Of a stretch of 33,125 nucleotides of DNA, positions 4,132 through 20,311 are shown in pieces. The translations under genes and the position numbers were made by a program. Under the pieces are notes generated by a model. That model worked only from the letters and a program-made list of their open reading frames with translations, searched no databases and had not been told where the DNA came from. The stretch comes from Actinomycetota bacterium (lineage in GTDB: Bacteria; Actinomycetota; Acidimicrobiia; Acidimicrobiales; Ilumatobacteraceae): NCBI GenBank assembly GCA_016871295.1, contig VFZD01000013.1, forward strand, positions 1-33,125, written 5' to 3'. Every line of letters starts with the position of its first letter. The stretch's first letter is position 1.

Positions 4132-4138
4132 CAACATG

Positions 4139-4144
4139 AGTTTA
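4139..4144 (-). promoter_or_regulatory. -10 element TAAACT for the iolC operon (leaderless)
   Basis: TAAACT on the minus strand matches the actinobacterial TAnnnT -10 consensus. It ends 7 bases before the ATG at 4131, so transcription would begin at or next to that codon. No convincing -35 is visible. The same TAAACT plus 7-base arrangement occurs before cysD. Confidence 0.5.
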
Positions 4145-4163
4145 TTCGCGAGGCCAAAATTTA

Positions 4164-4193
4164 TTGCTACTGATCGGCGTGGACGACTAGTTT
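4164..4193 (+). promoter_or_regulatory. Promoter for the 4200 dehydrogenase operon (leaderless)
   Basis: A -10 box TAGTTT at 4188-4193 is followed by 6 bases and then the ATG at 4200, leaving no room for a 5' leader or Shine-Dalgarno site. A weak -35 candidate TTGCTA lies at 4164-4169 with an 18-base spacer. The iolC -10 lies about 45 bases away on the other strand, so a regulator binding between them could control both operons. Confidence 0.55.
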
Positions 4194-4199
4194 TTTGAC

Positions 4200-5198
4200 A
4201 TGCGAATCGCGGTTTTCGGCGCCGGGAGAATGGCTGACATTCGCATCGAGGACATGGTCAAAGACCCACGGGTCACCGACATTGCGATCGTCAACAGGTC
4301 GGCAAAAAATGCCGAGGCGTTGAAGACAAAGCACGGGGTGCGGGTGGTCGCCGAGCAAGATTTCAAAGCCGCAGATTTCGATTCATACATGATCACAACT
4401 GGCACCTCGCACCATGCCTACGCACTTGGCTTGGTAATCGGGGCGAAGAGAAAGATTTTCTGCGAAAAGCCCATTGCCCTCGAACTTGCCGAAACCGACG
4501 AGGTTCTGCGACGGATGCGCGAGGTGGGCGCAGAATTGCAAATTGGTTTTCAACGCAGATTCGACCCACCGATCGCCAAAGCAAAGCAATTGATCGATGC
4601 GGGCAATGTCGGCACGCTCTACCATCTGCGATTCATGTCGAACGACATCGAACCTTCGTCGCGCGAGTTCTTGGCGGGAAGCGGGGGGATCTTTCGCGAT
4701 TTGCATGTGCATGATTTTGACCTCGCCGAATGGTTGTGTGCCGAACCGATCGCCGAGGTTTACGCGACGCGGCGAGTGCGCGAGCACCAGCAATACGCCG
4801 AGTTCGGCGACGGAGATGTCTCGTTGATTCATGCCACGACGAAGTCGGGCGTGCAGATAAGCATCTCGGGTACGCGACACGACCCGCTCGGCCACGATGT
4901 TCGTTTCGAGGTTTTTGGTTCGAAGAACTCGTTGAGTTCGGGTTTCTCGCCGCGCACGCCGCTCAAGTTGTTGGACGACGGCCTTGCAATCGGAGCCGAC
5001 CCGTATCGCGGTTTTGTCGACCGGTTCAGGGCTGCGTTCAGATGCGAGACTTTGGCGTACATCGATTGGCTGAGCGGGGAACGAGACAACCCGTGCGGGC
5101 CGGAGTCGGCACGCAGCGGCATCTGCATTGCGATCGCGTGCGAGATTTCCGATCGCGACAGGCGCGTCGTCGAAGTTTCGGAAGTGCGCGGCTCATGA
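4200..5198 (+). CDS. Gfo/Idh/MocA family dehydrogenase (IolG-like)
   Basis: This protein of 332 residues starts directly with the Rossmann motif MRIAVFGAGRMAD. The catalytic lysine motif EKP is at 89-91, followed by FQRRFDPP, and the substrate-domain motif GGIFRDLHVHDFD (D167, H171) is the pattern seen in inositol 2-dehydrogenases. The reaction is probably NAD+-dependent oxidation of an inositol or related polyol. There is no Shine-Dalgarno sequence; a -10 box 6 bases upstream indicates a leaderless mRNA starting at this ATG. The stop overlaps the start of the next dehydrogenase (ATGA), so translation is coupled. Divergent orientation from iolC places it in the inositol region, but the substrate is not proven. 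Confidence 0.85.
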   Translation: MRIAVFGAGRMADIRIEDMVKDPRVTDIAIVNRSAKNAEALKTKHGVRVVAEQDFKAADFDSYMITTGTSHHAYALGLVIGAKRKIFCEKPIALELAETDEVLRRMREVGAELQIGFQRRFDPPIAKAKQLIDAGNVGTLYHLRFMSNDIEPSSREFLAGSGGIFRDLHVHDFDLAEWLCAEPIAEVYATRRVREHQQYAEFGDGDVSLIHATTKSGVQISISGTRHDPLGHDVRFEVFGSKNSLSSGFSPRTPLKLLDDGLAIGADPYRGFVDRFRAAFRCETLAYIDWLSGERDNPCGPESARSGICIAIACEISDRDRRVVEVSEVRGS

Positions 5199-6199
5199 GT
5201 CGATTCAAGATCGTTCTCGTCGGGCTCGGGCGAATGGGCAGGGTGCACGCCGCGGCGCTGATCAAGTCACAAAGCGTCGATGTAGTCGCCGTTGCCGATC
5301 AGTCGAGCGCATCAATCGAGTCTGCGCGAGAGATGTTTCCGGGTGCCGCAATGTATTCGGATTATCGGCAGGCGTTGCGCCACGCCGGGGCCCACGGTTG
5401 TTTGATCGCTTCGCCGACACCTCTGCATCCGGAGATGGTGCAACAGGCATTGGCCAACTATCTGCATGTGCTCTGCGAAAAGCCACTCGCTTTAGATGTC
5501 GATTTGGCGCGGCAACTGGCCGAGCAGGCGAAGTCGAGGCAACTTCTGTTGCAGATCGGGCACTGGCGCAGGTTTTCGCCGCCATGGCAGAAGGCAAAAC
5601 GGCTGGTCGACGCGGGCGTGATCGGTGATTTGTTGATGATTCGCCTTTCACAGTGGGATGCGAATTCACCGCCCGCGAGTTTTTGCGACGTGAGCGTGAG
5701 TGGTGGTTTGGCGATCGACTGCGGTGTGCACGAATACGACCTCGCCGAATGGTTCTTTGGCGCACCGGTCAAAGCGGTGCGGGCCTGGAATTTGCCGTTG
5801 GTCGAGAGGTCTTTGAAGTCGGTCGGCGATGTCGACAACCTGTGCGCGGTGCTCGAATTCGCCGACGCCCGAACCGCATTCGTCGACCTGTCGCGAAATT
5901 GTCGATACGGTGACGATGTGCGCACCGAGATTCTGGGCAGCCAGGGCGCGGTATTCGTCGATCTGTTGCCGACGGGGCGAACGCGACTCGCGACCAAAGA
6001 CGGCGTGGTCGAAGTCGAGGGATCACAAGTCGCCGATGCAACCGCCGCCGGAGTCGAGAACCAACTCGAGAGTTTCGTCTCGGCTGCGATAAGCGGAAAT
6101 TTCGACGATCTGCCAGACGGTCGGGCGAGCGCCAGATCGACGGAAATTGGCCATGCGGTCACGAGCGCGGCGAAAAGCGCGAAGCGCATGACTGTTTGA
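5195..6199 (+). CDS. Gfo/Idh/MocA family dehydrogenase
   Basis: This 334-residue protein starts at the ATG that overlaps the previous stop codon by four bases (ATGA, 5195-5198). The frame is open further upstream, but that portion is out of register with any family sequence. Motifs are GLGRMGRVH (10-18), CEKPLALD with EKP at 95-97, and GGLAIDCGVHEYDLAEW with D175 and H179 as probable catalytic residues. It is a second dehydrogenase of the same superfamily as its upstream neighbour but not a recent duplicate: the motifs differ (HEYD against HDFD, GHWRRF against FQRRFD). The two may act on successive intermediates or epimers. Followed after one base by a carbohydrate-deacetylase-like gene. Family is sure; substrate is unknown. 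Confidence 0.85.
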   Translation: MSRFKIVLVGLGRMGRVHAAALIKSQSVDVVAVADQSSASIESAREMFPGAAMYSDYRQALRHAGAHGCLIASPTPLHPEMVQQALANYLHVLCEKPLALDVDLARQLAEQAKSRQLLLQIGHWRRFSPPWQKAKRLVDAGVIGDLLMIRLSQWDANSPPASFCDVSVSGGLAIDCGVHEYDLAEWFFGAPVKAVRAWNLPLVERSLKSVGDVDNLCAVLEFADARTAFVDLSRNCRYGDDVRTEILGSQGAVFVDLLPTGRTRLATKDGVVEVEGSQVADATAAGVENQLESFVSAAISGNFDDLPDGRASARSTEIGHAVTSAAKSAKRMTV

Positions 6200-6200
6200 G

Positions 6201-7079
6201 ATGTTCGAGGGTTTCGATAATTCGATCGTCTTGCATCAAGACGATGTCGGCATGTGTCACGGGGCGAATGTCGCGTTCAAAGAACTTTCGTCACTGGGTT
6301 CGATAACCAGCGGTTCTGTCATGGTGCCGTGCCCTTGGTTTATCGAGGCGGCAAAAATCGCGGCTTCAGACTCGCGGCTTGATCTCGGTGTGCATCTGAC
6401 GCTCACGGCGGAAAAAGAGTTTTACCGCTGGCGGCCGATCAGCGACACGAGTCGATCGACTGGGCTGGTTGACGAGCATGGGTTCATGTGGCGCGACGTG
6501 AGTTCGGTGCGTCGCAACGCGAACCTCGACGCGGTGTCGGCGGAGTTGCGGGCCCAGGTCGATCTGGCGCTTGCAAGCGGTTTTGATGTCACTCACCTCG
6601 ACGCCCATATGGGCGCGACGCTGTCACCCGAGTTTTGTCGTATATACATAGAGCTCGGCCTCGACTACAAGTTGCCGATATTGATCACACGAAAATTGTC
6701 GGCTTACGGGCCGAACAACCACATTGTTGGGGTCAGCGACGAGCAGTTTGCACCGTTCGTCAGGATGGCGGGCGAGAAAGGTCTGCCGATTTTCTCGCGC
6801 GTCTTGGAGACGAACTTTTCACGACCGACGGGCCAGCCGCTGGCCGATGACGCGTACCAGCAAATGTTCTCGCAGAAATACGACGGCATGGTTTTTGCGG
6901 CGCTGCACCCGAACGCCCCGGGCGAGGTCGAGACGATCGAACCGCGCCAGTTTCACGTGCGCACCGACGAATACGCGATTTTCAGGTCGGAAGAATATTT
7001 GACTTGGCTGAATCGATCAGAAATCAGGCGAGTAGGCATGCGAGAGATTCGCGACGAGATGCGAAAGTCGATGGTTTAG
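6201..7079 (+). CDS. YdjC/ChbG-family carbohydrate deacetylase-like protein
   Basis: This 292-residue protein has the YdjC/ChbG fold, metal-dependent deacetylases known to act on N-acetylated sugars such as chitooligosaccharides. Visible signatures are LHQDDVGMC with the paired aspartates (14-15), LGVHLTLT (H65) and DVTHLDAHMG (H132, H136), which together make the metal site and catalytic acid. The start ATG follows the previous stop by a single base, so it is in the same operon as two Gfo/Idh dehydrogenases. That context suggests deacetylation or related hydrolysis of an amino-sugar or cyclitol conjugate before oxidation; this is inference. Its last four bases overlap the convergent MFS gene. 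Confidence 0.82.
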   Translation: MFEGFDNSIVLHQDDVGMCHGANVAFKELSSLGSITSGSVMVPCPWFIEAAKIAASDSRLDLGVHLTLTAEKEFYRWRPISDTSRSTGLVDEHGFMWRDVSSVRRNANLDAVSAELRAQVDLALASGFDVTHLDAHMGATLSPEFCRIYIELGLDYKLPILITRKLSAYGPNNHIVGVSDEQFAPFVRMAGEKGLPIFSRVLETNFSRPTGQPLADDAYQQMFSQKYDGMVFAALHPNAPGEVETIEPRQFHVRTDEYAIFRSEEYLTWLNRSEIRRVGMREIRDEMRKSMV

Positions 7080-8248
7080 CGGCTCGCCAACTCGGCTTGC
7101 CGGGCGGGAAAGCATTTGGGAATCAGTTTTGTGCCGAGCAAAACGGTGGCGGCGGTGCACGACAAGAAAACCGGGAAAGTCCAAGTGCCGACACGCTCCA
7201 AAAACTGCCCGGCAAGCCAGGGCAGGGTCGTTGAACTGACGCCGGCCGTGCCGACGATTCGAGCCGTCATTTTGCCCGACAGCGTCGTGCGATTGCCGAT
7301 GAAGCCGAACATCAGCGGAAACTGCGGCGCGGCGGCGATGCCGTAGACGATGGCGCATGGCACTAGTAGCGAGTCAATTCTGAAATAAAGCAGGGCGCAA
7401 ACCGCGATGTTGGCGATCGCGCCGATCTGAATGAACAAAATTCCATGTCCTTTGCGCGCCAAAAAGACCGTGGCGAATCGACCAAGCATGAAGCCGACCC
7501 AATAGGTCGAAGTGAGAACCGCCGCCTCATTTTTTGAAAGGCCGGTCTTGATGCCGTAGGTGAAGATCCAGGTGACGAACGCGACTTCAAGCGCGACATA
7601 ACCGAGGAAGAACATGACGATCATCGCGATTTGCTTTTTGGAGATGTCGACCTCGGTCTCGCGTTTTTCGAGGTGCGGGTCGAGCGGCGCCCGGTGAAAA
7701 ATGACGACCGTGGCGACGATCGAGATCGCCGCGGCGGCGAACCAGTAGGCCAGAGAAGCGTCGCCACGGGTGGCGTCGGAGCCGCGAACGATCAACGGGC
7801 TCAAAATCGCACCGACGCCGAACATCGTGTGCATCAGCGCCAGGCGTGGGCCGACCCTGTCCTTTAGTTCCCAGACGATCAAGGTGTTGCAACCCACATC
7901 GGAGGTCGAGACCGCCGTGCCAAAAAACAAGAACAAAAGTGCAAGCACGAGCCGCATCGAAACGAAAGGAACGAGTGCAAAACAAGTCGCGGCGACGAAG
8001 AGAGAGCAACCGATCAGACGATTGCCGAGACTGCGGTCGTAGCCCCGTGCAAAAATCCGTGTGCCGAGCACATAGCCAAAGCCGTAGGTGACCAAAATGA
8101 TGCCGACTGACGCAATATTCACGCGAACTTGTTCGGCCAGCAACGAAATCGACGGACCGACGAGGCCGAACGCCAAGCCGACCACCAAAAAGACAGCGAA
8201 ATATGCGCGATGAGAGCGAGTCGGTTGGTCAACCATCTGTGCGCTCAC
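7076..8248 (-). CDS. MFS transporter
   Basis: This 390-residue major facilitator has about 12 hydrophobic segments, beginning AYFAVFLVVGLAFGLVGPSI near residue 15. An MFS-like loop ARGYDRSLGNR follows the second helix, and a long central loop (HLEKRETEVDISKKQ) separates the two halves. The GTG at 8246-8248 is chosen because it overlaps the upstream protease stop as GTGA; an ATG four codons later (8236) is the alternative. Coupled translation with a secreted or anchored trypsin-like protease is an uncommon pairing. Substrate unknown; the neighbouring sugar genes suggest a sugar or cyclitol but there is no direct support. The 3' end overlaps the convergent deacetylase gene by four bases. Confidence 0.83.
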   Translation of the reverse strand: MSAQMVDQPTRSHRAYFAVFLVVGLAFGLVGPSISLLAEQVRVNIASVGIILVTYGFGYVLGTRIFARGYDRSLGNRLIGCSLFVAATCFALVPFVSMRLVLALLFLFFGTAVSTSDVGCNTLIVWELKDRVGPRLALMHTMFGVGAILSPLIVRGSDATRGDASLAYWFAAAAISIVATVVIFHRAPLDPHLEKRETEVDISKKQIAMIVMFFLGYVALEVAFVTWIFTYGIKTGLSKNEAAVLTSTYWVGFMLGRFATVFLARKGHGILFIQIGAIANIAVCALLYFRIDSLLVPCAIVYGIAAAPQFPLMFGFIGNRTTLSGKMTARIVGTAGVSSTTLPWLAGQFLERVGTWTFPVFLSCTAATVLLGTKLIPKCFPARQAELASR

Positions 8249-9006
8249 CCTGTGCAGGCTACGGGTTCTGCCTCTTGCGTCGAGGGATAGTTGCTCGCGG
8301 TATCGACGAGTGATTCGATGGCTTCGGCCCGAGTCGCCCAAGATTTGTCGGCGACGATTCGGCTCGCCGACCAGACCAGGCCGACAATTTCGCCGGCTTT
8401 GTTCACCAATGGTCCACCAGAATTGCCGACTTCCACCGACAACTCAACTTCGATACCGGGTCGCGAAACCTTTTCGCGAAGATAAATGTCCTCGGTGTCG
8501 ATGCGCAGACGGCGTCGAATTTTTGCGGCTCGCACAAACTGTGATTCGTCGTCAAACGCGAAAAAGTAAACATCTTCACCGTTTTCCGCTTCGCCTAAAG
8601 CGAGGGGCGTAAACCTGCGATCTTGGGGCGTCGGGTCGATTTTGAGCAGGGCCAAATCTTGTTGCACATCGATTGCCACGACTTTGGCCGTGAATTTGTC
8701 GCCTTCGAGTGTGGTTATCTCGTTCATCGTTTGTCCGGCCACGCCGTGGGCGACAGAGACGATCAAACGACGGTCGATGAAGGTGCCGACCGTTCTGGTT
8801 ACGGCCGAGCGACAGCCCGACGAGGTGATCAAAACGATCGATGGAGACTTTGTTGGCAGATCGTCTTGGAGGAGCGTCACCGCAAAGATGCCAGACGTCA
8901 GTGAGACGAAAGTCGCCAGCAGAAGCACGAATTTTTTTGGTCTGATTTTGAAAAACGATAGTTGATCGGGGTGTTTTCTACTAGTTTGAGAGAGTGGCAA
9001 GAACAA
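8245..9006 (-). CDS. Trypsin-like (HtrA-type) serine protease with N-terminal membrane anchor or signal
   Basis: The protease domain shows a complete triad: VSVAHGV (H87), QQDLALLKI (D117) and VGNSGGPL (S196), numbered from the 9006 TTG. Spacing and the 'DLALLKI' context resemble HtrA/DegP-type S1C domains, without a PDZ domain at the C-terminus. Residues 27-46 form one hydrophobic segment after RPKK, so the enzyme is exported or anchored with the domain outside. The start is uncertain: no in-frame ATG is available near the N-terminus. TTG at 9006 or 9000 keeps the basic residues before the hydrophobic segment but overlaps the divergent iolE start; GTG at 8928 would remove them. The stop overlaps the MFS start (GTGA). 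Target unknown. Confidence 0.8.
   Translation of the reverse strand: MFLPLSQTSRKHPDQLSFFKIRPKKFVLLLATFVSLTSGIFAVTLLQDDLPTKSPSIVLITSSGCRSAVTRTVGTFIDRRLIVSVAHGVAGQTMNEITTLEGDKFTAKVVAIDVQQDLALLKIDPTPQDRRFTPLALGEAENGEDVYFFAFDDESQFVRAAKIRRRLRIDTEDIYLREKVSRPGIEVELSVEVGNSGGPLVNKAGEIVGLVWSASRIVADKSWATRAEAIESLVDTASNYPSTQEAEPVACTG
8982..8987 (+). promoter_or_regulatory. -10 element TAGTTT for iolE (leaderless)
   Basis: TAGTTT at 8982-8987 is followed by exactly six bases (GAGAGA) and then the GTG at 8994. This is the same geometry as at 4188-4200 and indicates a leaderless iolE mRNA. The best -35-like sequence, TTGATC at 8962-8967, is only 14 bases away, so the -35 is unclear. Confidence 0.55.
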
Positions 9007-9884
9007 AAGTTTCGGTTGTCGATCGTCTCGTAGGCAACCCGATTTCGTGGGGTGTTTGTGAAGTGCCCGATTGGGGTTTTCAACTCGATGCGCGAACTGT
9101 CCTGGGCGAAATGAGAGCGGTGGGTCTCAAGGCAACCGAGCAGGGTCCGGTCGGTTATCTGGGGACGACACCCGAAGAAGTCGCGAAAGTTGCCGATGAA
9201 TTTGGTTTGCCGATTGTCGGCGCATTCGTGCCGTTGATCATGCACGACATGGCCCAGCGCGAAAAAATGCGCAAGGCGGCGCATTTTTCTGCGGGGTTGT
9301 TGGGTGCGACCGGGAAGGGTTTTTTCATAACTGCCGTCGTCGTCGATGAAGGTTGGGGAAAGCGATTCAAACTTTCGGATGCCCAGTGGAAGGCGATGTT
9401 CGACGGGTTCAAGGAGATCGACGAAATCTGCGCCGGATACGGAATTCGCCAGGTGTTGCACCCGCATTTGAATACGCTCGTCGAAACTCAAGATGATGTG
9501 AACCGGGTTTTGGACGGCTCGAGCGTCAGGTGGTTGCTTGATACAGGTCACCTGCAGATCGGTGGTACCGACCCCGTCAAATTCGCACGCGAAAACCATT
9601 CGCGCATCGATCACTTTCATGTGAAGGATGCAAGAATGACCATCGCCAAGAAGTTTTTGGCCGGCGAAATCACCTTGATCGAAGCCACTCGAGATGGCGT
9701 GTTCTGCGCCGCCGGGGATGGCGATGTAAAGATTGCTGAAGCGATCGAAGTCATGGAGTCGAACGGTTACGACGGCTGGTATGTGCTCGAACAAGACATG
9801 GCGATCGTCGGCGATCAACCACGCGATGCGAAGGTTTCGACCGCGGGCGTGCGTCGGAGCATCGACTTTCTCGCAAAACTCTGA
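8994..9884 (+). CDS. iolE: Inosose dehydratase IolE (TIM-barrel sugar isomerase/epimerase family)
   Basis: This 296-residue protein is of the xylose-isomerase-like TIM-barrel family. The early motif NPISWGVCEVPDWGFQL (about residues 15-31) is characteristic of IolE, which dehydrates 2-keto-myo-inositol to 3D-(3,5/4)-trihydroxycyclohexane-1,2-dione. Later barrel segments include LHPHLNTLVET, WLLDTGHLQIGG and IDHFHVKD, which hold the metal-binding Glu/Asp/His set. The start is a GTG with no Shine-Dalgarno but a -10 box six bases upstream, supporting leaderless translation. The product of IolE is the substrate of IolD encoded at 13969 in the same direction, and an ABC importer lies between them. 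Identification is strong. Confidence 0.92.
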   Translation: MARTKVSVVDRLVGNPISWGVCEVPDWGFQLDARTVLGEMRAVGLKATEQGPVGYLGTTPEEVAKVADEFGLPIVGAFVPLIMHDMAQREKMRKAAHFSAGLLGATGKGFFITAVVVDEGWGKRFKLSDAQWKAMFDGFKEIDEICAGYGIRQVLHPHLNTLVETQDDVNRVLDGSSVRWLLDTGHLQIGGTDPVKFARENHSRIDHFHVKDARMTIAKKFLAGEITLIEATRDGVFCAAGDGDVKIAEAIEVMESNGYDGWYVLEQDMAIVGDQPRDAKVSTAGVRRSIDFLAKL

Positions 9885-9894
9885 GTTTTCGATG

Positions 9895-9938
9895 AGCGCC
9901 TCGCCGTGGGCGGCGCTGGAACCTCAAATAGCCTGAGG
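9895..9938 (+). terminator. Possible stem-loops downstream of iolE
   Basis: AGCGCC (9895-9900) pairs with GGCGCT (9912-9917), and CCTCA (9922-9926) pairs with TGAGG (9934-9938). Neither is followed by a clear T-tract, so termination is only a possibility. The rest of the 210-base gap to the next gene holds a promoter and palindrome described separately. Confidence 0.3.
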
Positions 9939-10008
9939 CGGGTTTGAAAGGCTTGATTTAGGCGCTTTGACGATTAGCAAGTCGAATTCATCCCCAAATT
10001 GGTCGGAT

Positions 10009-10037
10009 TTGTCGGACCGCCGTGTGGAGGGTAGTTT
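10009..10037 (+). promoter_or_regulatory. Promoter of the sugar ABC / iolD / iolG operon
   Basis: A -35 TTGTCG at 10009-10014 and a -10 TAGTTT at 10032-10037 are separated by 17 bases. This is the best-formed promoter in the window. It gives a leader of roughly 50 bases with a strong ribosome site AGGGGGAG at 10081-10088 before the ATG at 10095. Confidence 0.65.
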
Positions 10038-10044
10038 CTACACA

Positions 10045-10059
10045 ACAGGAATGTCCTGT
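10045..10059. promoter_or_regulatory. Perfect palindrome, candidate operator
   Basis: ACAGGA-ATG-TCCTGT is a perfect 6-base inverted repeat with a 3-base centre. It lies just downstream of the -10, covering the expected transcription start. That position suits a repressor operator, perhaps for an inositol-responsive regulator encoded elsewhere. No second copy was noticed in the window. Confidence 0.5.
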
Positions 10060-10094
10060 AAGCAATAAAAAACAATTTTAAGGGGGAGAAACAA

Positions 10095-11072
10095 ATGAAG
10101 ATCCGTAATACATGGGGAGTCGTCCTCGGTGCGGCAGCACTGTTGGCACTCGCCGCATGTGGTGGCTCGTCAGATTCAGCCGAGGACTCGGCTGAAGTGA
10201 AAGCCGGCGAAGACATCACGATCGCGGTTATCACCCACGGTGATGACGGCGTGTTCTGGTCAGTCGCTCAGAAAGGTGCAGAGGCCGCAGGTGCTGCGCT
10301 TGGAATCACGATGAACTATCAGGGTGCAAACAACAACGCACAGGACCAGGCTCAAATGATCGAGCAGGCGGTCACTGACGGTGTGGACGGCATCGCCGTT
10401 TCGTTGGCAGACCCGAAGGCTCTCGAAGGAGCGCTCAAGAAGGTTGTTGCTGCGGGCATTCCGTTGATCACCTTGAACTCGGGCTCAGACCTCTTCAAGG
10501 GTCTTGGTGCGATCACCCACGTAGGTCAAGACGAGACGATTGCCGGCCGTGGCGCTGGTGAGCGTTTGAAGGCCGCCGGTGGAACCGTGCTTCTTTGCGC
10601 CAAGCAAGAGCAGAGCAACGTCGCCCTTGAGACACGCTGCAACGCAGCCGCCGAGACTTTTGGTGGCAAAGTCATTCAGATCACAACCTCGGGTGACGCA
10701 GACCGCGTTGCTCAGCAAGGTGAGATCAAGGCTGCACTCGATGCTGACCCATCGATCAACGCCTTCCTTGGAACTGGTCCGGTAATCGCTGTTGACGGTG
10801 CAAACGCCGCCGCAGAACTGGGTCGTGCAATTCCAGTCGGTGGTTTCGACTTGTCGACAGAAATTCTTGACTACATCAATCAGGACAAGTTGACCTTCAC
10901 CATCGACCAGCAGCAATTCCTCCAGGGTTACCTGTCGGTCGTGTTCCTCTATCTCAACGTGACTAACAAGAACACTGTTGGTGGTGGATTGCCAGTTATG
11001 ACAGGTCCTGGATTCGTCGACAAGTCAAACGTCGTCGCAGTTCAAGAACTTGTTGGCAAAGGAACCCGCTAA
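10095..11072 (+). CDS. Sugar ABC transporter substrate-binding lipoprotein (RbsB-like)
   Basis: This 325-residue lipoprotein has a short basic N-terminus, a hydrophobic segment and lipobox LAAC with the acylated Cys22, followed by a Ser/Glu/Asp-rich linker. The mature part is a type 1 periplasmic-binding fold of the ribose/xylose/inositol class: ITIAVITHGDDGVFWSVAQKG starts the first domain, and GVDGIAVSLADPKAL, GIPLITLNSG and AFLGTGP are typical strands. It sits in the inositol locus between iolE and iolD, so a cyclitol is the likely ligand, though xylose is possible given xylAB nearby. It has its own strong promoter and Shine-Dalgarno, and a terminator-like hairpin follows it, which would favour excess of binding protein. 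Codon choice looks more biased than in neighbours, as for highly expressed genes. Confidence 0.92.
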   Translation: MKIRNTWGVVLGAAALLALAACGGSSDSAEDSAEVKAGEDITIAVITHGDDGVFWSVAQKGAEAAGAALGITMNYQGANNNAQDQAQMIEQAVTDGVDGIAVSLADPKALEGALKKVVAAGIPLITLNSGSDLFKGLGAITHVGQDETIAGRGAGERLKAAGGTVLLCAKQEQSNVALETRCNAAAETFGGKVIQITTSGDADRVAQQGEIKAALDADPSINAFLGTGPVIAVDGANAAAELGRAIPVGGFDLSTEILDYINQDKLTFTIDQQQFLQGYLSVVFLYLNVTNKNTVGGGLPVMTGPGFVDKSNVVAVQELVGKGTR

Positions 11073-11096
11073 TTAGTTAGTTGTTCTAATCGCAAG

Positions 11097-11153
11097 TTGG
11101 TTCGCCCGCTCGAATCTTGGGCGGGCGAACCAACCCGATTTGGTTTTGTTTCG
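11097..11153 (+). terminator. Strong hairpin between binding-protein and permease genes
   Basis: TTGGTTCGCCCGC (11097-11109) and GCGGGCGAACCAA (11121-11133) form a perfect 13-base-pair stem with an 11-base loop, followed by a T-rich tract CGATTTGGTTTTGTTT. No new promoter is evident before the permease. It probably acts as a partial terminator or a 3'-end stabiliser that lowers permease/ATPase expression relative to the lipoprotein. Confidence 0.75.
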
Positions 11154-11177
11154 TGAGTTTTGGTGGGGGAAGCAAGC

Positions 11178-13202
11178 GTGAGCGAAGTTGACGGCCTGTC
11201 GCCAGCAAAGAGCGGCGACGAGAGAATCTCATATCGGGGGCCGATCAAAAGACTTTTAGTTTCGCCAGAAATCGGTGCGTTGATTGGCGCGGTCGTGGTC
11301 TGGGCATTTTTCTGGGGCAACGGCGACAAGTTCGGCACGGCCGGCAGCACGGCAAACTTTTTGGATGTTGCCGCGCCGTTGGGCATCATGGCGGTGGTCG
11401 TCGCCCTGCTGATGATCGGCGGCGAATTCGACCTTTCGGCCGGCGTAATGACCGGGGCCAGCGGCGTCACGATCGCATTGATGGCGAAATATTTCACCGA
11501 AGGCGGCATCTCACTCTGGGTTTGTATTCCCGCCGCGTTTTTGTTGGCCGGTTGCGTGGGCTGGTGGAACGGGTTTTTGGTCAATCGAACCGGGCTGCCG
11601 AGTTTCATCGTCACGCTCGGGTCGTTTTTCGTGATCAAGGGCGCAAACCTTGTTTTCGCCAAGCGCATCAACTCAAAAGTCAATGTCGCAGATGTCGACA
11701 AGGCCCACGGATACAAGTTCTTCAAGGCCCTTTTGGGTGGAGAAAATACCTTCGGCGAAATGAAGTATCGCGGTTTGATTTTTATCGTCGGCGGGCTGCT
11801 TTTTGCTGCACTACTTGTATTGGGTTTGATCGAACAATCTTTGGTTCGAAAGCAGTCGGCATCGGCCGGCGACTTGGCGTTTGCAGTCGCGGGACTAGCC
11901 GCGGCGATCGCGGGAGTTTTGATCTTGCATCGCACCGACTCGATCAACGGCAATTATTTGGCCGGTGTGGTCGGGCTTGTCGGCACCGTGGTGGCGATCG
12001 TGTTTTATTCGCGGGCCCGCTTTGAGAGTCGCCACAAGATTGTAGGCGCACTGCCAGACGAGTCGAAGCGGTTCTTGGCGCTTGGTATTTTCGGCATGTT
12101 GGTCGCATCGTTCGCGGGTCGATTGTTCGACCGTAATGAAGAGCAGGTGATGCTGCAGTGGATGCCCGACACATTGAGAATGGTCGTGGCGGTGTTTGCG
12201 GCGCTGTTTCCGCTGGCGATGACGATCAGGTCGTTTGCTCGCGGCGACAAAGAGGCGCGAGGGCGCGTGATCGCCTCGTTGATCGTGCGACTGCCCGTGA
12301 TCTGTCTGGTTTCGTTGATCGGCGTAGTTTCGTTGTTTCAGTTGACGACCGTACAGGCGGTGCGTGCCGTAGTGATAACGGCTGCGGGCTCGGGTGGCGC
12401 AGTTTGCTTTTATCAGGCGCGCAGGGCCGCCGCGAAAATTTCTACTAAGTGGTTCTTGACCATCGGCGCGCTGATGTCGGGAGCGTTCGTGTTCGTGGCG
12501 TTCGCCCTGCGGGCAGATGCCAATGCGGAGAGGTTCAGGGGCGGAATTTTCGCCAGCCTCTTGCTGGTGGCGACCCTGATTTTGGCAACGACCATAGTCG
12601 AGGCGACGAATCGAATCCGCACTGCACCCGATGAAAAGGCCGATGCGCTTGGTCGACGCCTCGTGCTTGTCGGAATTGTTCTGGGTTCGATCGCCCTCAC
12701 CGTGCGCCTGTTGTTTTCTGACGGCGTGTTTCGCATGTCGGTTTTTTGGTGGTTGTTCTTCACGGTCATCGGGGCGTTCGTATTGACCAAAACGAAGTAC
12801 GGCAACTGGATCTTCGCCGTCGGCGGCAACAAAGATGCCGCTCGCGCAACTGGTGTGCCAGCCGACAAAGTGAAGACGACGTTGTTCGTGGCGACTTCGT
12901 TGATGGGCGCGTTCGTGGGTGCGATGATTTTGATGCGACTCAACTCGGTGCAGGCCCAGCAGGGTGACGGCCAAGAATTCGAATACATCATCGCCGCGGT
13001 CGTGGGTGGCAACTTGATGACCGGTGGCTACGGCTCGGTCATTGGCGCGTCGCTCGGCGCCTTGATCATGGCTATTTCGAAGAACGGCATTCCTGCCGCC
13101 CGTTGGAACCAAGATGGTCGGTTCATTTTCTTGGGCGCCGTGTTGCTGGTATCGGTGTTGGTGAACAACTACGTGCGAAAGAAAGCGAACGAACAACGAT
13201 GA
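11178..13202 (+). CDS. RbsC/XylH-type sugar ABC permease with a large internal membrane insert
   Basis: This 674-residue permease is roughly twice the usual RbsC length and well beyond XylH. The N-terminal part is typical: [21 protein letters not shown] (about 67-87) and [20 protein letters not shown]. The C-terminal part is also typical: [20 protein letters not shown] (about 541-560) and the EAA-like region [20 protein letters not shown]. Between about residues 199 and 514 lies an extra segment with some ten hydrophobic stretches that has no counterpart in ordinary family members. The frame is continuous and codon use looks uniform, so it is not a frameshift fusion. GTG at 11178 is preferred (GGGGGAAG 5 bases upstream) over TTG at 11160. 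The stop overlaps the ATPase start (ATGA). Confidence 0.88.
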
Positions 13203-13954
13203 CCGCCAAGAATCCGCTGCTCGAACTCGACAACATCTCCAAGTACTTTGGCAATGTAAAGGCGCTCGAAAACGTGTCGACCAAAGTTTTGGCCGGTCAA
13301 GTCACATGTGTCTTGGGCGACAACGGTGCCGGAAAATCGACGTTCATCAAAATCATCTCGGGTCTTCACAAGCCGAGCTCCGGAAAATACAAATTCGAGG
13401 GTCATGAGGTTTCATTCGAGTCGCCGCGTGAAGCCCGATCCTTGGGTATCGCGACGGTTTATCAAGACTTGGCGATGGCGCCGCTGATGTCGGTTTGGCG
13501 AAATTTCTTTCTGGGTTCCGAGCCGATGCGACGATTCGGCCCGATCAATGTGATCGACGCCAAATTTGCCCGAAAAACCGCGAAAGAAGAAATGGCCAAA
13601 CTGGGTATCGATGTGCGCGATGTCGACCAACCAGTAGGCACGCTTTCGGGCGGGGAGCGACAAAGCGTCGCCATTGCGCGCGCGGTCTATTTTGGGGCAC
13701 GAGTTTTGATTCTTGACGAGCCGACTTCGGCGCTCGGCGTGCGCCAGTCTGATTTGGTGCTCGGATATGTGCGCGCGGCCGCCGCCCGAGATCTCGGCGT
13801 TATCTTGATCACGCACAACCCGCAGCACGCCTTGCCCGTCGGGGATCGCTTCTTGATTCTGAACCGCGGACAATCGATCGGGCAGCTCGAGAAAGCCGAC
13901 CTGACCTATGAGCGTTTGATCGAGTTGATGTCCGGTCGTATCCACGCCGCCTAG
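13199..13954 (+). CDS. Sugar ABC transporter ATP-binding protein, single nucleotide-binding domain
   Basis: This 251-residue ATPase has all motifs: Walker [10 protein letters not shown] (40-48), Q-loop TVYQD (Q89), signature [14 protein letters not shown] (149-162), Walker [10 protein letters not shown] (169-177) and H-loop LITHN (H206). Ribose/xylose-type importers usually carry a double-domain RbsA/XylG of about 500 residues; this one has only one domain and presumably works as a homodimer. The ATG at 13199 overlaps the permease stop as ATGA and gives the standard N-terminus, while the frame upstream reads over permease sequence. With the lipoprotein at 10095 and the enlarged permease it forms one importer. 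Substrate inferred as inositol from context. Confidence 0.92.
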
Positions 13955-13968: not shown

Positions 13969-15813
13969 ATGAAGACAATTCGCCTCACCACGGCACAGGC
14001 TCTCGTTAAGTTTTTGATCGCGCAGCGAATCGTCATCGATGGGCGAAAAGAAAAGTTGTTTCCCGGCGTCATGGCAATTTTCGGCCACGGCAATGTGACG
14101 AGCCTGGGCGTCGCATTAGACGAAAACCGCGAACATATCCGCACATATCGTGGCCAGAACGAGCAGGGCATGGCGCTGGCCGCAGTGGGTTTTGCCAAGG
14201 CGAAACGCCGACAACAGATCATGGTCGCGTCTTCGTCGATTGGTCCGGGCGCATTGAACATGGTCACTGCCGCGGGCGTGGCATATGTCGACCGTCTGCC
14301 GATCTTGATCTTGGCCGGTGACACGTTCGTGCATCGAGTGCCAGACCCAGTGTTGCAACAGGCGGAGAACTTCGTCGACCCGACCCAGAGTGTGAACGAC
14401 GCCTTCAAGCCCGTAGCGAGATATTGGGATCGAATCGTCGCGCCCGAGCAGTTGTTGCATTCTTTGCCGCATGCGGTGTCGACAATGCTCGACCCTGCGA
14501 CTTGCGGGCCGGCCTTCATCGGCCTGCCCCAAGACGTGCAGGCCGAGAGCTACGACTTTCCGGAGATATTTTTCGAAGAGGTCGTGCACACGATTTTGCG
14601 TCCGCGGGCCGACAAGGATGAATTGTCGCGGGCAGTCGAGGTATTGCGCACCGCAAGATCGCCTTTGATAATCGCCGGCGGTGGGGTGCATTATTCACTT
14701 GCCGAAAAAGAATTGGCCGAATTCGCGACGAAGCACAATGTGCCCGTGGTCGAGACCGTGGCGGGCAAGGCGTCGTTGTTGGCCGAGCATCGTCTCAACG
14801 GCGGGCCTGTTGGCGTGACTGGTTGTGAGTCGGCGAACAAGTTGGCCGCCGAGGCCGATGTTGTTTTGGCGTTGGGCACCCGTTTGCAAGATTTCACCAC
14901 TGGTTCGTGGACAATTTTCAGCAACGCCAAGACGAAATTTGTCGGTGTCAATACGACGCGTTTCGACGCGACCAAGCATCGCTCGTTGCCCGTGGTGGCC
15001 GACGTGCGCGAAACCTTGGGCGAGTTGACGAACGCATTGTCGTCATGGCGTGCGCCCGACACCTGGTCGAAACTGGCACAAACGGAAGCGGCGAAGTATC
15101 ACGCGTATATCGACAAGTTGGCAAGGAGTGATCCGAAAAAAATCGCGACATACGCCCAAGTTGTCGGTGTGGCCGATCGTTTGGCGCAAGCGAATGATTA
15201 TGCGCTGACCGCCGCGGGCGGTTTTCCGGGTGAGTTGAACAACGGCTGGCGAGCCAAGAGCCTCAATTCGTTCGACTGCGAATACGGGTTTTCGTGCATG
15301 GGCTATGAAATCTCGGGCGCCTGGGGGGCGAAGTTGGCGATGCCCGATCGCGAGGTGATTTCTTTCGTCGGTGACGGGTCGTACATGATGATGAACAGCG
15401 ACATCTACAGTTCGGTTTTGTACGGCAACAAACTGATCGTGATCGTCTGCGATAACGGCGGATATGCGGTGATCAACCGTCTGCAGACCAACCAAGGAGG
15501 AGTGCCGTTCAACAATCAATATGTCGATTGTGATGTGGCGAACCTCGTGTATGTCGACTTTGCCAAGCATGCCGAGTCGATGGGCGCGATCGCCGAGACG
15601 GTCGGGTCGATCGAAGAACTCGAAACCGCATTTTCGCGCGCCCGAAGTTCGACGCGAACCCATGTGATTGTTTTGAAGACGAGTTCGAACGACTGGACAG
15701 AAGGCGGCTCGTTCTGGGAGGTCGGCGTGCCGACAACGAGTCATCGACCCGAAGTGGTCAAAGCAGGCGAGGCGATGATCGAGGGCAAAAAACAACAGCG
15801 AGTCGGTTGGTAG
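13969..15813 (+). CDS. iolD: 3D-(3,5/4)-trihydroxycyclohexane-1,2-dione hydrolase IolD
   Basis: This 614-residue thiamine-diphosphate enzyme hydrolyses the cyclic diketone made by IolE to 5-deoxy-glucuronate, opening the inositol ring. The N-terminal domain begins RLTTAQALVKFLIAQR, as in IolD, and contains the ThDP-activating glutamate in YRGQNEQGMAL (E65). The C-terminal domain carries the ThDP/Mg motif starting GDGSYMMMNSD (468-478) and ending DNGGYAVI. Length is normal for the family. It begins 14 bases after the ATPase stop, with a small hairpin directly before the ATG, and is followed closely by an SDR gene and iolG. Identification is strong. Confidence 0.96.
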   Translation: MKTIRLTTAQALVKFLIAQRIVIDGRKEKLFPGVMAIFGHGNVTSLGVALDENREHIRTYRGQNEQGMALAAVGFAKAKRRQQIMVASSSIGPGALNMVTAAGVAYVDRLPILILAGDTFVHRVPDPVLQQAENFVDPTQSVNDAFKPVARYWDRIVAPEQLLHSLPHAVSTMLDPATCGPAFIGLPQDVQAESYDFPEIFFEEVVHTILRPRADKDELSRAVEVLRTARSPLIIAGGGVHYSLAEKELAEFATKHNVPVVETVAGKASLLAEHRLNGGPVGVTGCESANKLAAEADVVLALGTRLQDFTTGSWTIFSNAKTKFVGVNTTRFDATKHRSLPVVADVRETLGELTNALSSWRAPDTWSKLAQTEAAKYHAYIDKLARSDPKKIATYAQVVGVADRLAQANDYALTAAGGFPGELNNGWRAKSLNSFDCEYGFSCMGYEISGAWGAKLAMPDREVISFVGDGSYMMMNSDIYSSVLYGNKLIVIVCDNGGYAVINRLQTNQGGVPFNNQYVDCDVANLVYVDFAKHAESMGAIAETVGSIEELETAFSRARSSTRTHVIVLKTSSNDWTEGGSFWEVGVPTTSHRPEVVKAGEAMIEGKKQQRVGW

Positions 15814-15824
15814 GGGCGAGACGA

Positions 15825-16655
15825 ATGACGGACAAGTCCGAGCCTTCGAGCATGCGGGGCAAAGTCTTGCTCCTAAGTGGCGCATCTCGGGGTGTCGGCG
15901 AATGCGTGGCGCGGTTGGCTGTCGAGCGGGGTGCGGCTGGCTTGGCCCTGGTCGGTCGCGACACCAAAACGGGCGAGAAGTTGGCCGCGGAACTGAGCGA
16001 GCTTGGCACACGCACGATTTTTATCACTGCCGATTTGGGCAAGGCCGACGAACCGAGCCGGATCGTCGGTGTTGTCGACGAAACTTTCGGTGTCGTGCAC
16101 GGACTCTTGAACTCGGCGGCGGTGACCGATCGCGGCAGCGTGTGGAACACGACGACAGAAATGTTCGACACGATGATGGCGGTCAATGTGCGGGCACCGT
16201 TCATGTTGATTCAGGAATGCGCAAAGATAATGAAACGCGAGGGCGTATCGGGTTCGGTGGTGAACATCGGCAGTGTCACCGGCCACGGCGGTGAAGTGAA
16301 TCTGACGCACTATGCGATCTCGAAGGGCGCGTTGCATACTCTGACACGAAATTGCGCCTATTCGTTGATGCGCGACCGTATTCGGGTCAATCTTTTGAAT
16401 CCGGGGTGGATGGACACACCAACCGAAGACGCGACCCAGCGTCGTTGGCACAACGCACAAGATGGTTGGTTGCAAAATGCCGAGGGCGAGCAGCCACTCG
16501 GTCGACTCATCAAGCCCGACGAACTCGCGCGCACGATCTTGTTTTTGCTTTCTGACGAATCGGGACTGATGACGGGGGCGATAATAGACTTCGACCAGTC
16601 GGTGCTTGGCGCCGGTTCGCCGTCGAAACCCAAATTAGGAGAAGTTTGGCCGTGA
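15825..16655 (+). CDS. Short-chain dehydrogenase/reductase (SDR)
   Basis: This 276-residue classical SDR has the cofactor loop SGASRGVGE (18-26), the NSAA variant of the NNAG motif (about 96-99), and the catalytic set N121, S150, Y163 and K167 (YAISK). The basic residue in the glycine-rich loop and R45 after the second strand suggest NADP(H) could be used. ATG at 15825 is preferred, with GGGGCGAG about 8 bases upstream; an earlier TTG at 15807 lies inside iolD. It sits between iolD and iolG in the same operon, so it probably oxidises or reduces an inositol isomer or inosose, but an SDR is not part of the classical iol set. The stop overlaps the iolG start (GTGA). Confidence 0.88.
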   Translation: MTDKSEPSSMRGKVLLLSGASRGVGECVARLAVERGAAGLALVGRDTKTGEKLAAELSELGTRTIFITADLGKADEPSRIVGVVDETFGVVHGLLNSAAVTDRGSVWNTTTEMFDTMMAVNVRAPFMLIQECAKIMKREGVSGSVVNIGSVTGHGGEVNLTHYAISKGALHTLTRNCAYSLMRDRIRVNLLNPGWMDTPTEDATQRRWHNAQDGWLQNAEGEQPLGRLIKPDELARTILFLLSDESGLMTGAIIDFDQSVLGAGSPSKPKLGEVWP

Positions 16656-17659
16656 CAATTGCAATCGGAGTTTTGGGTGTCGGTCGCATCGGGGAGATGC
16701 ACGCCGAGTTGATCGCCCAGCGAATCGAAGGCGCGCGTTTGGCGGGTGTTTTCGATTTGAATGGCGAGGCAGCCAAGGGCGTCGCCGCGAAGTTCAATTG
16801 CCGGCAGTTTTCTGATCCAGAAGAGCTGATGTCGTCGTCAGATGTAGATGCAATCGCAATCTGCACATCGACCGACACCCACGTCGACATGTTGGTCAAG
16901 GCGTCAAAATTTGAGAAGCCCGTGTTCTGTGAGAAACCCATTTCGCTCTCGTTGTCAGAAACAGACCGTGGTCTGAAAGCGATCAGTGACTCGAAAACGC
17001 CGTTGATGATCGGCTTCAACCGAAGATTTGACCCGAGCCATCGATCGGTGCGAGACAGCGTCGCCGACGGTTCGATCGGTGATGTGCACATTGCCCGCAT
17101 CACCAGCCGCGACCCAGCACCGCCACCAGTCGAATACGCGAAGGTTTCGGGTGGCATCTTTGTCGACATGACGATCCATGATTTCGATATGGCGCGATAT
17201 GTGGTGGGCAGCGAGATTGTCTCGGTTTATGCGACGGGTGCCGTGCGTGTCGTGCCGGCTTTAGCCGAAATTGGCGATCTCGACACGGTGGCGTTGATGT
17301 TGCAGCACGCAAATGGCGCAATCACGATGGTCGACAATTCGCGCCAGGCCGTTTATGGTTACGACCAAAGAGTCGAAGTCTTCGGATCGAAAGGTTTGGT
17401 CGGCTCGGATAATCCGCTGATGACAAGCACGGTTTCGCGCAATGCGCAGGGCACGCAGTTGGCGAAGATGCCGTATTTCTTTTTGGATCGTTACATACCT
17501 TCTTACATCGCCGAATGGAACGAATTCATCGCCGTGGCCAGCGGCAAGATCGCGCCCGCCGTAACTGGTGCCGATGGGCGGGCCTCGCTGGTGGCCGGGC
17601 TCGCCGCATGGAAGTCGGTTCGCGAGGGTCGCCTGGTCAAGACCAGCGAAATCAACTGA
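16652..17659 (+). CDS. iolG: Inositol 2-dehydrogenase IolG
   Basis: This 335-residue Gfo/Idh/MocA enzyme oxidises myo-inositol to 2-keto-myo-inositol with NAD+. It is the paralogue in this window closest to canonical IolG. Motifs are GVGRIGEMHA, VFCEKPISLS (EKP at 94-96), GFNRRFDPSH, then the diagnostic TSRDPAPPPVEY and GGIFVDMTIHDFDMARY with D172 and H176. The start is read as GTG at 16652, overlapping the SDR stop as GTGA, with AGGAG at 16637-16641; a TTG at 16646 is the alternative. It ends the rightward inositol operon and is convergent with xylB after a 5-base gap. Confidence 0.94.
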   Translation: MTIAIGVLGVGRIGEMHAELIAQRIEGARLAGVFDLNGEAAKGVAAKFNCRQFSDPEELMSSSDVDAIAICTSTDTHVDMLVKASKFEKPVFCEKPISLSLSETDRGLKAISDSKTPLMIGFNRRFDPSHRSVRDSVADGSIGDVHIARITSRDPAPPPVEYAKVSGGIFVDMTIHDFDMARYVVGSEIVSVYATGAVRVVPALAEIGDLDTVALMLQHANGAITMVDNSRQAVYGYDQRVEVFGSKGLVGSDNPLMTSTVSRNAQGTQLAKMPYFFLDRYIPSYIAEWNEFIAVASGKIAPAVTGADGRASLVAGLAAWKSVREGRLVKTSEIN

Positions 17660-17664
17660 GGCGA

Positions 17665-19089
17665 TCAGACGCCGAACGATTTTTTTCGAACCGCGGCGAA
17701 CCGTTGGCGCGTGGTTGTTTTTTGATCGTCTGAAGCGACTGGGTGCGCGGCGACACGAGAAGAGGCTGTCCACTGTGGCCAGTTGCCGGTGAGTGCCGCG
17801 GCGGCCTGTCGAGCCGCGCCGAGGGCGACGATTTCCGGTTCGTTCAAGACATTGACTTGTTCGCCCGTGAGATCGGCCACGATTTGGCAAACCGCACTCG
17901 ACTGCGCGCCACCACCGAGCAAGAAGATGCGACCCGAGGTGTCGACCGCGCAGTCGTTGATCGCCGATAATCCGTCGAGAAGTCCGCAGACGACGCCTTC
18001 GATCGCGGCGCGCGCGACATCGCTTCTGGTGTGACTCGCGCTCAGCCCGACCAATGTCGCCCGCGCATCGGGCAAGTTCGGTGTGCGCTCACCGTCGAGA
18101 TATGGCAACAACACGAGATCTCGTGAACCACACTCTGAAGCGAGCGCGAGATCGCCCAACTCGTGCAGACTGCAGTTCAAAAAGTTGGCGAACGAGTCGA
18201 AAACCTTTGTTGCGTTGAGTGTGCACACCAGCGGCAAGAATGCACCAGTTGCATCGGCGAAGCCCGCGACGCTCGCGCTGGCATCGAAGGTCGGTGAGGC
18301 GCTGACGCAATAAACGGTGCCCGATGTGCCTAGGGAAATTGCTACATCCCCTGGTTGCAACCCGATGCCAAGCGCACCCGCCATGTTGTCGCCCGTGCCG
18401 CAAGCGACAACCGCGTTTTGCCAGGTGCCCGTCTTTTCGAGCGGCGCGGCGACGCGGGGCAAAGCGCCAGACCAGTCGCGCTTTGCGTCGATGACCTGAA
18501 GAATCTCGTTGTCATATTGCCCTGACTTTGGCGACCAATAACCCGTGCCCGATGCGTCGCCGCGATCGGTGACGATCTCGTTCGCTCTCGCGCCTCGCAA
18601 TTGCCACGAGAGATAATCGTGGGGCAGGCATACGCGCGCGACACGGGCCCAGTTCTTGGGTTCGACCCGCTTGAGCCACGCGAGTTTGGCGACGGTGAAA
18701 CTTGCAACGGGCACGCTACCGACGCGGTCGGCCCACCATTTCGCATCGCGTTGTTGGATGCACCAACTTGCATCCGGGGCCGACTCGGTGTCGTTCCATA
18801 ACTTTGCCTTGCGCACGATGTTGTTGTCGCCGTCGATCGCCACGAGCCCATGCTGTTGGCCCGCCACCGAAATCGCCGCGACATTTTTGTCGTGATTCGT
18901 GAAACCCGCCTGATACAGCGCCGAGTCGAGGGCCTTCAACCATTCTTCGGGATGTGTTTCGCTGATCGGTGCGACGCCGGTGTCGGGGTGCGACGCCCGA
19001 CCGGCCGCGACGAGTTCACCCGAATCGACGTCGCGAAATTCGACTTTTGTCGACTGTGTCGACGAATCGACACCGATCACCAGCGACAT
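17665..19089 (-). CDS. xylB: Xylulokinase XylB
   Basis: This 474-residue FGGY-family kinase phosphorylates D-xylulose. The N-terminal phosphate-binding motif is GVDSSTQSTK, and AGQQHGLVAID and KLWND are typical of xylulokinases. The second-domain segment CGTGDNMAGALGIGL carries the catalytic aspartate, followed by the ATP-binding SLGTSGTVY and the late glycine-rich LLGGGAQSSAVCQIVAD. It follows xylA by 15 bases in a leftward pair, making 5-phospho-xylulose for the pentose phosphate pathway. It is somewhat shorter than average but all motifs are present. The 3' end nearly touches iolG. Confidence 0.93.
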   Translation of the reverse strand: MSLVIGVDSSTQSTKVEFRDVDSGELVAAGRASHPDTGVAPISETHPEEWLKALDSALYQAGFTNHDKNVAAISVAGQQHGLVAIDGDNNIVRKAKLWNDTESAPDASWCIQQRDAKWWADRVGSVPVASFTVAKLAWLKRVEPKNWARVARVCLPHDYLSWQLRGARANEIVTDRGDASGTGYWSPKSGQYDNEILQVIDAKRDWSGALPRVAAPLEKTGTWQNAVVACGTGDNMAGALGIGLQPGDVAISLGTSGTVYCVSASPTFDASASVAGFADATGAFLPLVCTLNATKVFDSFANFLNCSLHELGDLALASECGSRDLVLLPYLDGERTPNLPDARATLVGLSASHTRSDVARAAIEGVVCGLLDGLSAINDCAVDTSGRIFLLGGGAQSSAVCQIVADLTGEQVNVLNEPEIVALGAARQAAAALTGNWPQWTASSRVAAHPVASDDQKTTTRQRFAAVRKKSFGV

Positions 19090-19104
19090 TTGTCGATTGA
19101 CTTT

Positions 19105-20274
19105 TTATCTGACGCCGAGCAGCAGTTCAGTCACCAATTGATCGAGTCGCTCGTGGGCGTAACCTCGCTCGCCGAGCGCCTTCACATCGAACGAGCCCGT
19201 GCGCAGCGAATGAAGCGCGTCGGCGCCGAGACCTTCGGGCGAAGTCGGCTCGGCGAGTTTGTCGACCATCGCCGCCTTGAGCGCCGCCTGAATCTCTTTG
19301 TCTTGTTTGAATCGTCGCGATTTTTCGGCGAGGATCAAATAGGTGCGCATGCATCCGCGCGCGAAATCCCACACGCCCTCGGCGTTCTCGGTGCGGTAGG
19401 CGTGGGCGTCGAAGTGCAACATGCCGTTCCACTTCGAGTCTTCGAGAAGTTTGACCAAATAGAACGCGTCGCGGATGCCCTCGCTGCCGAAACGAAAATC
19501 TTGGTCGTATTTGCCGATGCGTTGGGCGTTGAGATCGATGTGAAACAACTTGCCGTGCCACAAAGTCTGGGCGACCGCATGGGTGAAGTTCAGACCGCTC
19601 ATCGTTTCGTGGGCGAACTCGGGGTTGAGGCCGACCATGTCTGGCCACTCGAGTTCGTTGATGAACGCGATCGCGTGTCCGACGGTGGGCAAGAACATGT
19701 CGCCACGCGGCTCATTGGGCTTGGGCTCAAGGGCGAACTTCAGGTCGTAACCCCGATCTTTTGCATAGGCGCAACAAATGTCCACCGCCTCGGCGTATCG
19801 ATCTAGAGCAGTGCGCACATCTTTTGCGGCCTCGCACTCGAGCCCCTCGCGACCACCCCACATGACATAAACTTTGGCGCCGAGCGAAACGCCCATGTCG
19901 ATCGACTCCATCGTTTTTTTGATCGCGTAGCGACGCACGATTGGATCATTCGCGGTAAACGCGCCCTCTTTGAAAACCGGTTGACCAAACAGATTCGTGG
20001 TCGCCATTGGCACCTTGATGCCCGTCTTGTCGAGCGCCTGACGAAAACGCTTCAGCGCGGTCTCGCGTTCTGCGGCTGTCGCACCGAACGGCACCAGATC
20101 GTCGTCGTGAAAATTCACGCCGTATGCGCCGATTTCGGCGAGGCGATGCACCGACTCGACGGGGTCGAGCGAAGGACGCGTTTCGAGACCGAACGGGTCT
20201 CGACCCATGTTGCCAACGGTCCATAGACCGAAGGTGAAGCGATGTTCTGGTTTCGGTGTGTAGTTGTCAGACAT
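19105..20274 (-). CDS. xylA: Xylose isomerase XylA
   Basis: This 389-residue TIM-barrel isomerase interconverts D-xylose and D-xylulose, the length typical of actinobacterial class I enzymes. Catalytic and metal residues are visible in order: [13 protein letters not shown] (catalytic His and Asp), [21 protein letters not shown] (metal Glu and catalytic Lys), [16 protein letters not shown] (metal Glu and His), HIDLNAQ with KYDQDFRFG (metal Asps), and [16 protein letters not shown] at 20274 gives the standard N-terminus [14 protein letters not shown] -10 TAACAT seven bases upstream makes a leaderless start likely. First gene of the xylA-xylB operon. Confidence 0.96.
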
Positions 20275-20281
20275 GTCGCAG

Positions 20282-20311
20282 ATGTTAGTTGTAATTCGCA
20301 ACGGCACTCAA
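20282..20311 (-). promoter_or_regulatory. xylA promoter (leaderless)
   Basis: On the minus strand TTGAGT (reverse of 20306-20311), an 18-base spacer and TAACAT (reverse of 20282-20287) form a promoter. Its -10 ends 7 bases before the xylA ATG. Confidence 0.55.

Follow-up and report, generated by a model that had tools for sequence, protein, structure and literature searches.

A predicted five-hairpin membrane insert in an inositol-type ABC permease of Acidimicrobiia

The window analyzed here is a stretch of 33,125 nucleotides from a member of the Ilumatobacteraceae (contig VFZD01000013.1), and it carries on its forward strand a set of genes that, judged by family matches and gene order, forms an inositol catabolism operon. 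The operon starts with a gene for an IolE-like TIM-barrel protein (8994–9884), whose best NCBIfam model is myo-inosose-2 dehydratase with a score under the cut-off. It is followed by genes for a lipoprotein sugar- or inositol-binding protein of the Peripla_BP_4 type (10095–11072, PF13407), an inositol-type CUT2 ABC permease (11178–13202), a single-domain ABC ATPase of 251 amino acids (13199–13954), IolD (13969–15813, 831.6 against an NCBIfam cut-off of 715), a dehydrogenase, and IolG (16646–17659, 409.6 against a cut-off of 355). The permease, with the binding protein and the ATPase as its partners, is part of this operon, and the locus is predicted to encode an importer of inositol or a close cyclitol. 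The related genomes examined keep the order of iolE-like gene, binding protein, permease, and ATPase, and in L049 no binding protein was recognized beside the permease. In L045, iolD appears as two overlapping frames (9485–11538), probably due to a frameshift or a sequencing error. On the reverse strand, a 421-residue frame at 7076–8341, with no NCBIfam match at 1e-15, is kept beside the operon in close relatives (L031–L048), and genes for a xylulokinase (xylB) and a xylose isomerase (xylA), both exceeding their NCBIfam cut-offs, are found directly after the inositol genes (17665–20307).

The permease is encoded by an uninterrupted open reading frame of 674 residues with zero internal stops, starting at a GTG codon at 11178, with a TTG at 11160 as a possible alternative. 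PF02653 (BPD_transp_2) is the only Pfam family found in it, matched in two stretches that fall in both halves of the protein (131 bits against a gathering score of 26.8). The N-terminal half (residues 1–185, 11178–11732) aligns with insert-less relatives and is of the normal RbsC/IatP type, while the C-terminal half (residues 513–674, 12714–13202) contains the coupling region. Between them lies the insert (residues 186–512 approximately, 11733–12713), delimited by hydropathy and by the alignment of relatives. The inter-half site holds 345 residues in this protein, against 20–48 in insert-less relatives, an excess of about 321 when measured against the commonest insert-less linker of 24. Hydropathy predicts 18 membrane segments for the whole permease, ten of them inside the insert, leaving an ordinary core. 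These results agree with the sequence-only reading, which had described normal RbsC/XylH-like ends, about 315 extra residues at 199–514, and roughly ten hydrophobic stretches in one frame, and had interpreted them as a possible extra membrane domain between the permease halves; such a domain is indeed absent from normal relatives. With 18 predicted helices, the protein departs from the approximately 10 of CUT2 permeases, a usual rather than strictly defining number, and it is assigned to CUT2 by its two conserved halves. In a TCDB-based survey of ABC uptake porters, the 17 CUT2 members have 7–12 predicted helices (PMC3654945); the core and the type of transporter are shared with the window permease, whose 18 segments exceed the surveyed range.

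The ten predicted helices of the insert are arranged in five hairpins, named U1 to U5. U1 (residues 195–257, 11760–11948) includes helices 200–218 and 233–251; U2 (258–330, 11949–12167), helices 260–278 and 299–317; U3 (331–390, 12168–12347), helices 332–350 and 368–386; U4 (391–450, 12348–12527), helices 394–412 and 426–444; and U5 (451–516, 12528–12725), helices 456–474 and 495–513. The inter-half loop of RbsC-type permeases faces outward. When this orientation is assumed for the window permease, the loops predicted inside hold on average 2.6–4.8 lysines and arginines, and those predicted outside 0–2.9; loop h-i (445–455), predicted outside, is the single exception to this positive-inside pattern.

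The closest comparison is provided by inositol permeases that have the same operon partners, namely a binding protein, a single-domain ATPase, and iol genes, and both conserved halves, with an inter-half linker of their own of only 20–48 residues instead of the 345 residues and ten helices of the window protein. Two of them (L096 and L097) belong to the same order and occupy the corresponding operon with 24 residues at the site, contrary to the case in which all close homologues would carry the segment as ordinary helices. Short-linker permeases are also found beside annotated iol genes in plasmid records from Thermus (Thermus thermophilus pTHTHE1601), Roseateles (Roseateles sp. XES5), Tsukamurella, and Paracoccus. 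These relatives also bear on the ATPase. Unlike the double-domain ATPase of the Caulobacter myo-inositol importer, the one in the window is single-domain, as the sequence-only reading had noticed, and each of its orthologues in the acidimicrobial loci holds one set of Walker A, signature, and Walker B motifs. The further proposal that this ATPase type is tied to the insert, and marks a special stoichiometry, is rejected, since the insert-less operons of L096, L097, Thermus, Roseateles, and Tsukamurella share it (as does that of Paracoccus; in the four records outside the order this is judged from the annotated length). The single-domain ATPase is therefore the ordinary partner of this subfamily. 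The insert-bearing permease represents a genuine elaboration, specific to one lineage, of a known transporter. It offers a clean natural experiment, in which inositol importers of one kind that share their operon partners occur both with an insert of 8 to 12 helices and without one. This allows one to ask how membrane proteins gain helices between domains while staying functional, and what an accessory membrane domain contributes to an ABC importer. Moreover, with the insert the permease is about twice as large, in a genome that is small (1.5 Mb assembled) and from which useless sequence might be expected to disappear.

An assembly or frameshift artefact, which had been named as a possible source of the long frame, can be excluded. 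Independent metagenome assemblies of Acidimicrobiia, more than 15 in number and including Ilumatobacteraceae and acIV, contain full-length copies with 74–92% identity and an uninterrupted frame; many of these assemblies derive from lakes. In addition, synonymous changes far outnumber replacement changes within the insert. Between close relatives, dN/dS is 0.04–0.12 for the insert and 0.01–0.02 for the core, ratios that are rough, most pairs being close to saturation at synonymous sites. By this comparative evidence the insert is translated and under purifying selection, although less tightly constrained than the core. Nine insert positions are invariant among 27 divergent inserts (R198, R224, R281, T391, Q393, R396, A441, R454, and R481), and the conserved charged residues sit at predicted helix ends. 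In L051, an insert-bearing permease is broken into two frames near residue 330–344 (3663–5691).

The origin of the insert was addressed with a tree built only from the two permease halves, with the insert omitted. In this tree all insert bearers group in a single clade with support 99/97; the insert-less L020 is its sister, and the remaining insert-less sequences fall outside. When distant XylH-type sequences had served as outgroups in an earlier tree, three insert-less order-mates fell inside the insert clade (92/80); the tree with closer outgroups is preferred, and the long branches of the insert-less sequences leave some doubt. Within these limits, a single gain of the insert in Acidimicrobiia appears well supported by the core phylogeny. 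Of 397 sampled genomes from the order, 61 matched a profile of the insert, in all but three weak cases within frames of 639–906 residues, and the matches of this profile among 396 genomes of the phylum were confined to members of the order. Across both sets, the insert was not convincingly found as a separate protein, the only candidates being those three very weak matches. The suggestion that it represents a fused helper is thus unsupported, given that the profile is convincing only inside the permease.

After its gain, the insert changed in size by whole hairpins, as judged from the aligned sequences. Linker lengths fall by subclade into 296–308, 345–363, 403–415, and 436–540 residues, and the number of insert helices is even in every member counted: 8 in L053, 10 in the window, L049, and L004, and 12 in L005 and L009. 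The aligned insert-bearing members have a common 8-helix core, and U3 is the hairpin missing in the 8-helix members. In L009 and L010, with frames of 906 and 904 residues, a long and mostly polar stretch precedes the first insert helix, in addition to extra hairpins.

Profile comparison revealed similarity among U1, U2, and U5, with none of 100 hydropathy-preserving column shuffles reaching the observed scores (z 5.4–6.2). The likeness of U4 to other hairpins is borderline, and for U3 no similarity to the other hairpins was detected. The resemblance of U1, U2, and U5 beyond shuffled expectation suggests that the insert was likely built by hairpin duplication. Single-sequence comparisons covering a part of the members, L009 among them, showed no duplication; the tandem duplication apparent by eye in L009 was not significant.

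Examination of the insert alone against protein families and by structure prediction, as proposed in the sequence-only reading, yielded a helical bundle of moderate confidence (AlphaFold, pLDDT 73, pTM 0.70), with no consistent family or fold match. Searches of Pfam and NCBIfam gave nothing convincing beyond scattered weak Pfam matches in at most 4 of 27 members, and Foldseek found no match to the insert model under an E value of 0.001. The middling helical-bundle matches to 14-3-3, designed bundles, YiiP, and TTYH2 were not accepted as relatives. Neither the permease nor its insert-less relatives, used as queries, gave a match in a sequence search of the PDB, and the AlphaFold model of the full permease (mean pLDDT 51) was too poor for placing the insert.

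The insert probably forms a membrane collar at the periphery of an inositol ABC importer that is ordinary in its other parts. Such an importer would consist of the lipid-anchored binding protein, a presumably homodimeric permease, and the single-domain ATPase used twice. By the core tree, the membrane segment was gained once, in the putatively outward-facing inter-half loop of the ancestor of one acidimicrobial clade, and it then grew and shrank hairpin by hairpin, with five hairpins in the window permease. Addition of helices in pairs would let both halves keep their orientation, leaving a workable pump with 8, 10, or 12 extra helices. The insert probably packs against each copy of the permease on its lipid-exposed side, outside the translocation path, and its several-fold weaker constraint compared to the core fits a position in the periphery rather than in the pore. 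The collar may help the complex to assemble, make it more stable, or dock the lipid-anchored binding protein, any specific role being a guess; the invariant residues could imply a specific function beyond that of a collar.

Other explanations differ in whether the insert serves a function and in where it came from; the chief rivals to the collar are neutral accretion and a regulatory module. Of the proposals made in the sequence-only reading, a regulatory or scaffold module is one that may hold. Neutral accretion, in which chance hairpins would have ratcheted into a tolerant loop with no positive function, kept only by the need to fold and insert harmlessly, seems rather unlikely. It would account for the absence of the insert from relatives, for the wide range of linker lengths (296–539 residues) and for a constraint far below that of the core, but the listed insert bearers all retain at least 8 helices, and the low dN/dS together with the nine invariant positions points to selection on specific residues. 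A selected role could take the form of a regulatory or partner-docking module that senses or binds a lipid, a membrane protein, or the substrate, and tunes uptake. The common 8-helix core and the placement of conserved charged residues at the ends of predicted helices are consistent with it; however, with no known domain or fold match, and no separate copy of the insert beyond the three very weak matches, it is an unlikely reading. A more far-reaching reading, well short of probable, is that a new membrane domain arose by hairpin duplication within an ABC importer of one bacterial order and is now selected as an accessory unit, serving either to dock the lipid-anchored binding protein or to adjust uptake by bacteria of nutrient-poor fresh water. 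The widened channel contemplated in the sequence-only reading, or an added one with altered stoichiometry owing to the single-domain ATPase, is highly improbable. The many added helices would favor it, but insert-less operons have the same ATPase, and the core is strongly conserved whereas the insert is drifting and differs between members in its count of helices.

Permeases of the GguB/XylH type also hold an extra membrane hairpin at the inter-half site, a site that tolerates hairpins in two lineages. In contrast to the window permease, theirs is a single hairpin within a linker of 73–92 residues, on a separate branch of the core tree, and the window permease scores 133.5 bits against the GguB NCBIfam equivalog, below its cut-off of 450. 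Descent of the insert from this hairpin, as an enlarged form of it, is appealing by local alignment, since alignments extend from the XylH/GguB hairpin into U5. Nevertheless, when the XylH hairpin profile is compared with U1, U2, and U5, its scores are equaled or exceeded by 1, 2, and 10 of 100 shuffles, respectively, which places the likeness within or near the shuffle range. The neighbors of the insert clade among inositol permeases in the core tree lack a hairpin, and such a descent would require either loss and regain or transfer. Enlargement of the XylH hairpin is, accordingly, unsupported by the tree and the shuffles and quite unlikely.

No comparable insert is known in Caulobacter IatP, and the open-access literature searched yielded nothing on this insert, on CUT2 permeases of extended length, or on how Acidimicrobiia take up inositol. 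Among inositol importers, the Caulobacter system IbpA-IatA-IatP, which takes up myo-inositol, has been studied best (PMC2597717). It shares with the window system the kind of importer, the probable substrate, and the association with the iol pathway. As to the substrate, the best NCBIfam model for the binding protein (10095–11072) is a rhizopine (inosamine) binding protein, at 184 bits against a cut-off of 420, and a gene for a primary-amine oxidase is found downstream (20452–22389), which makes an aminated inositol conceivable.
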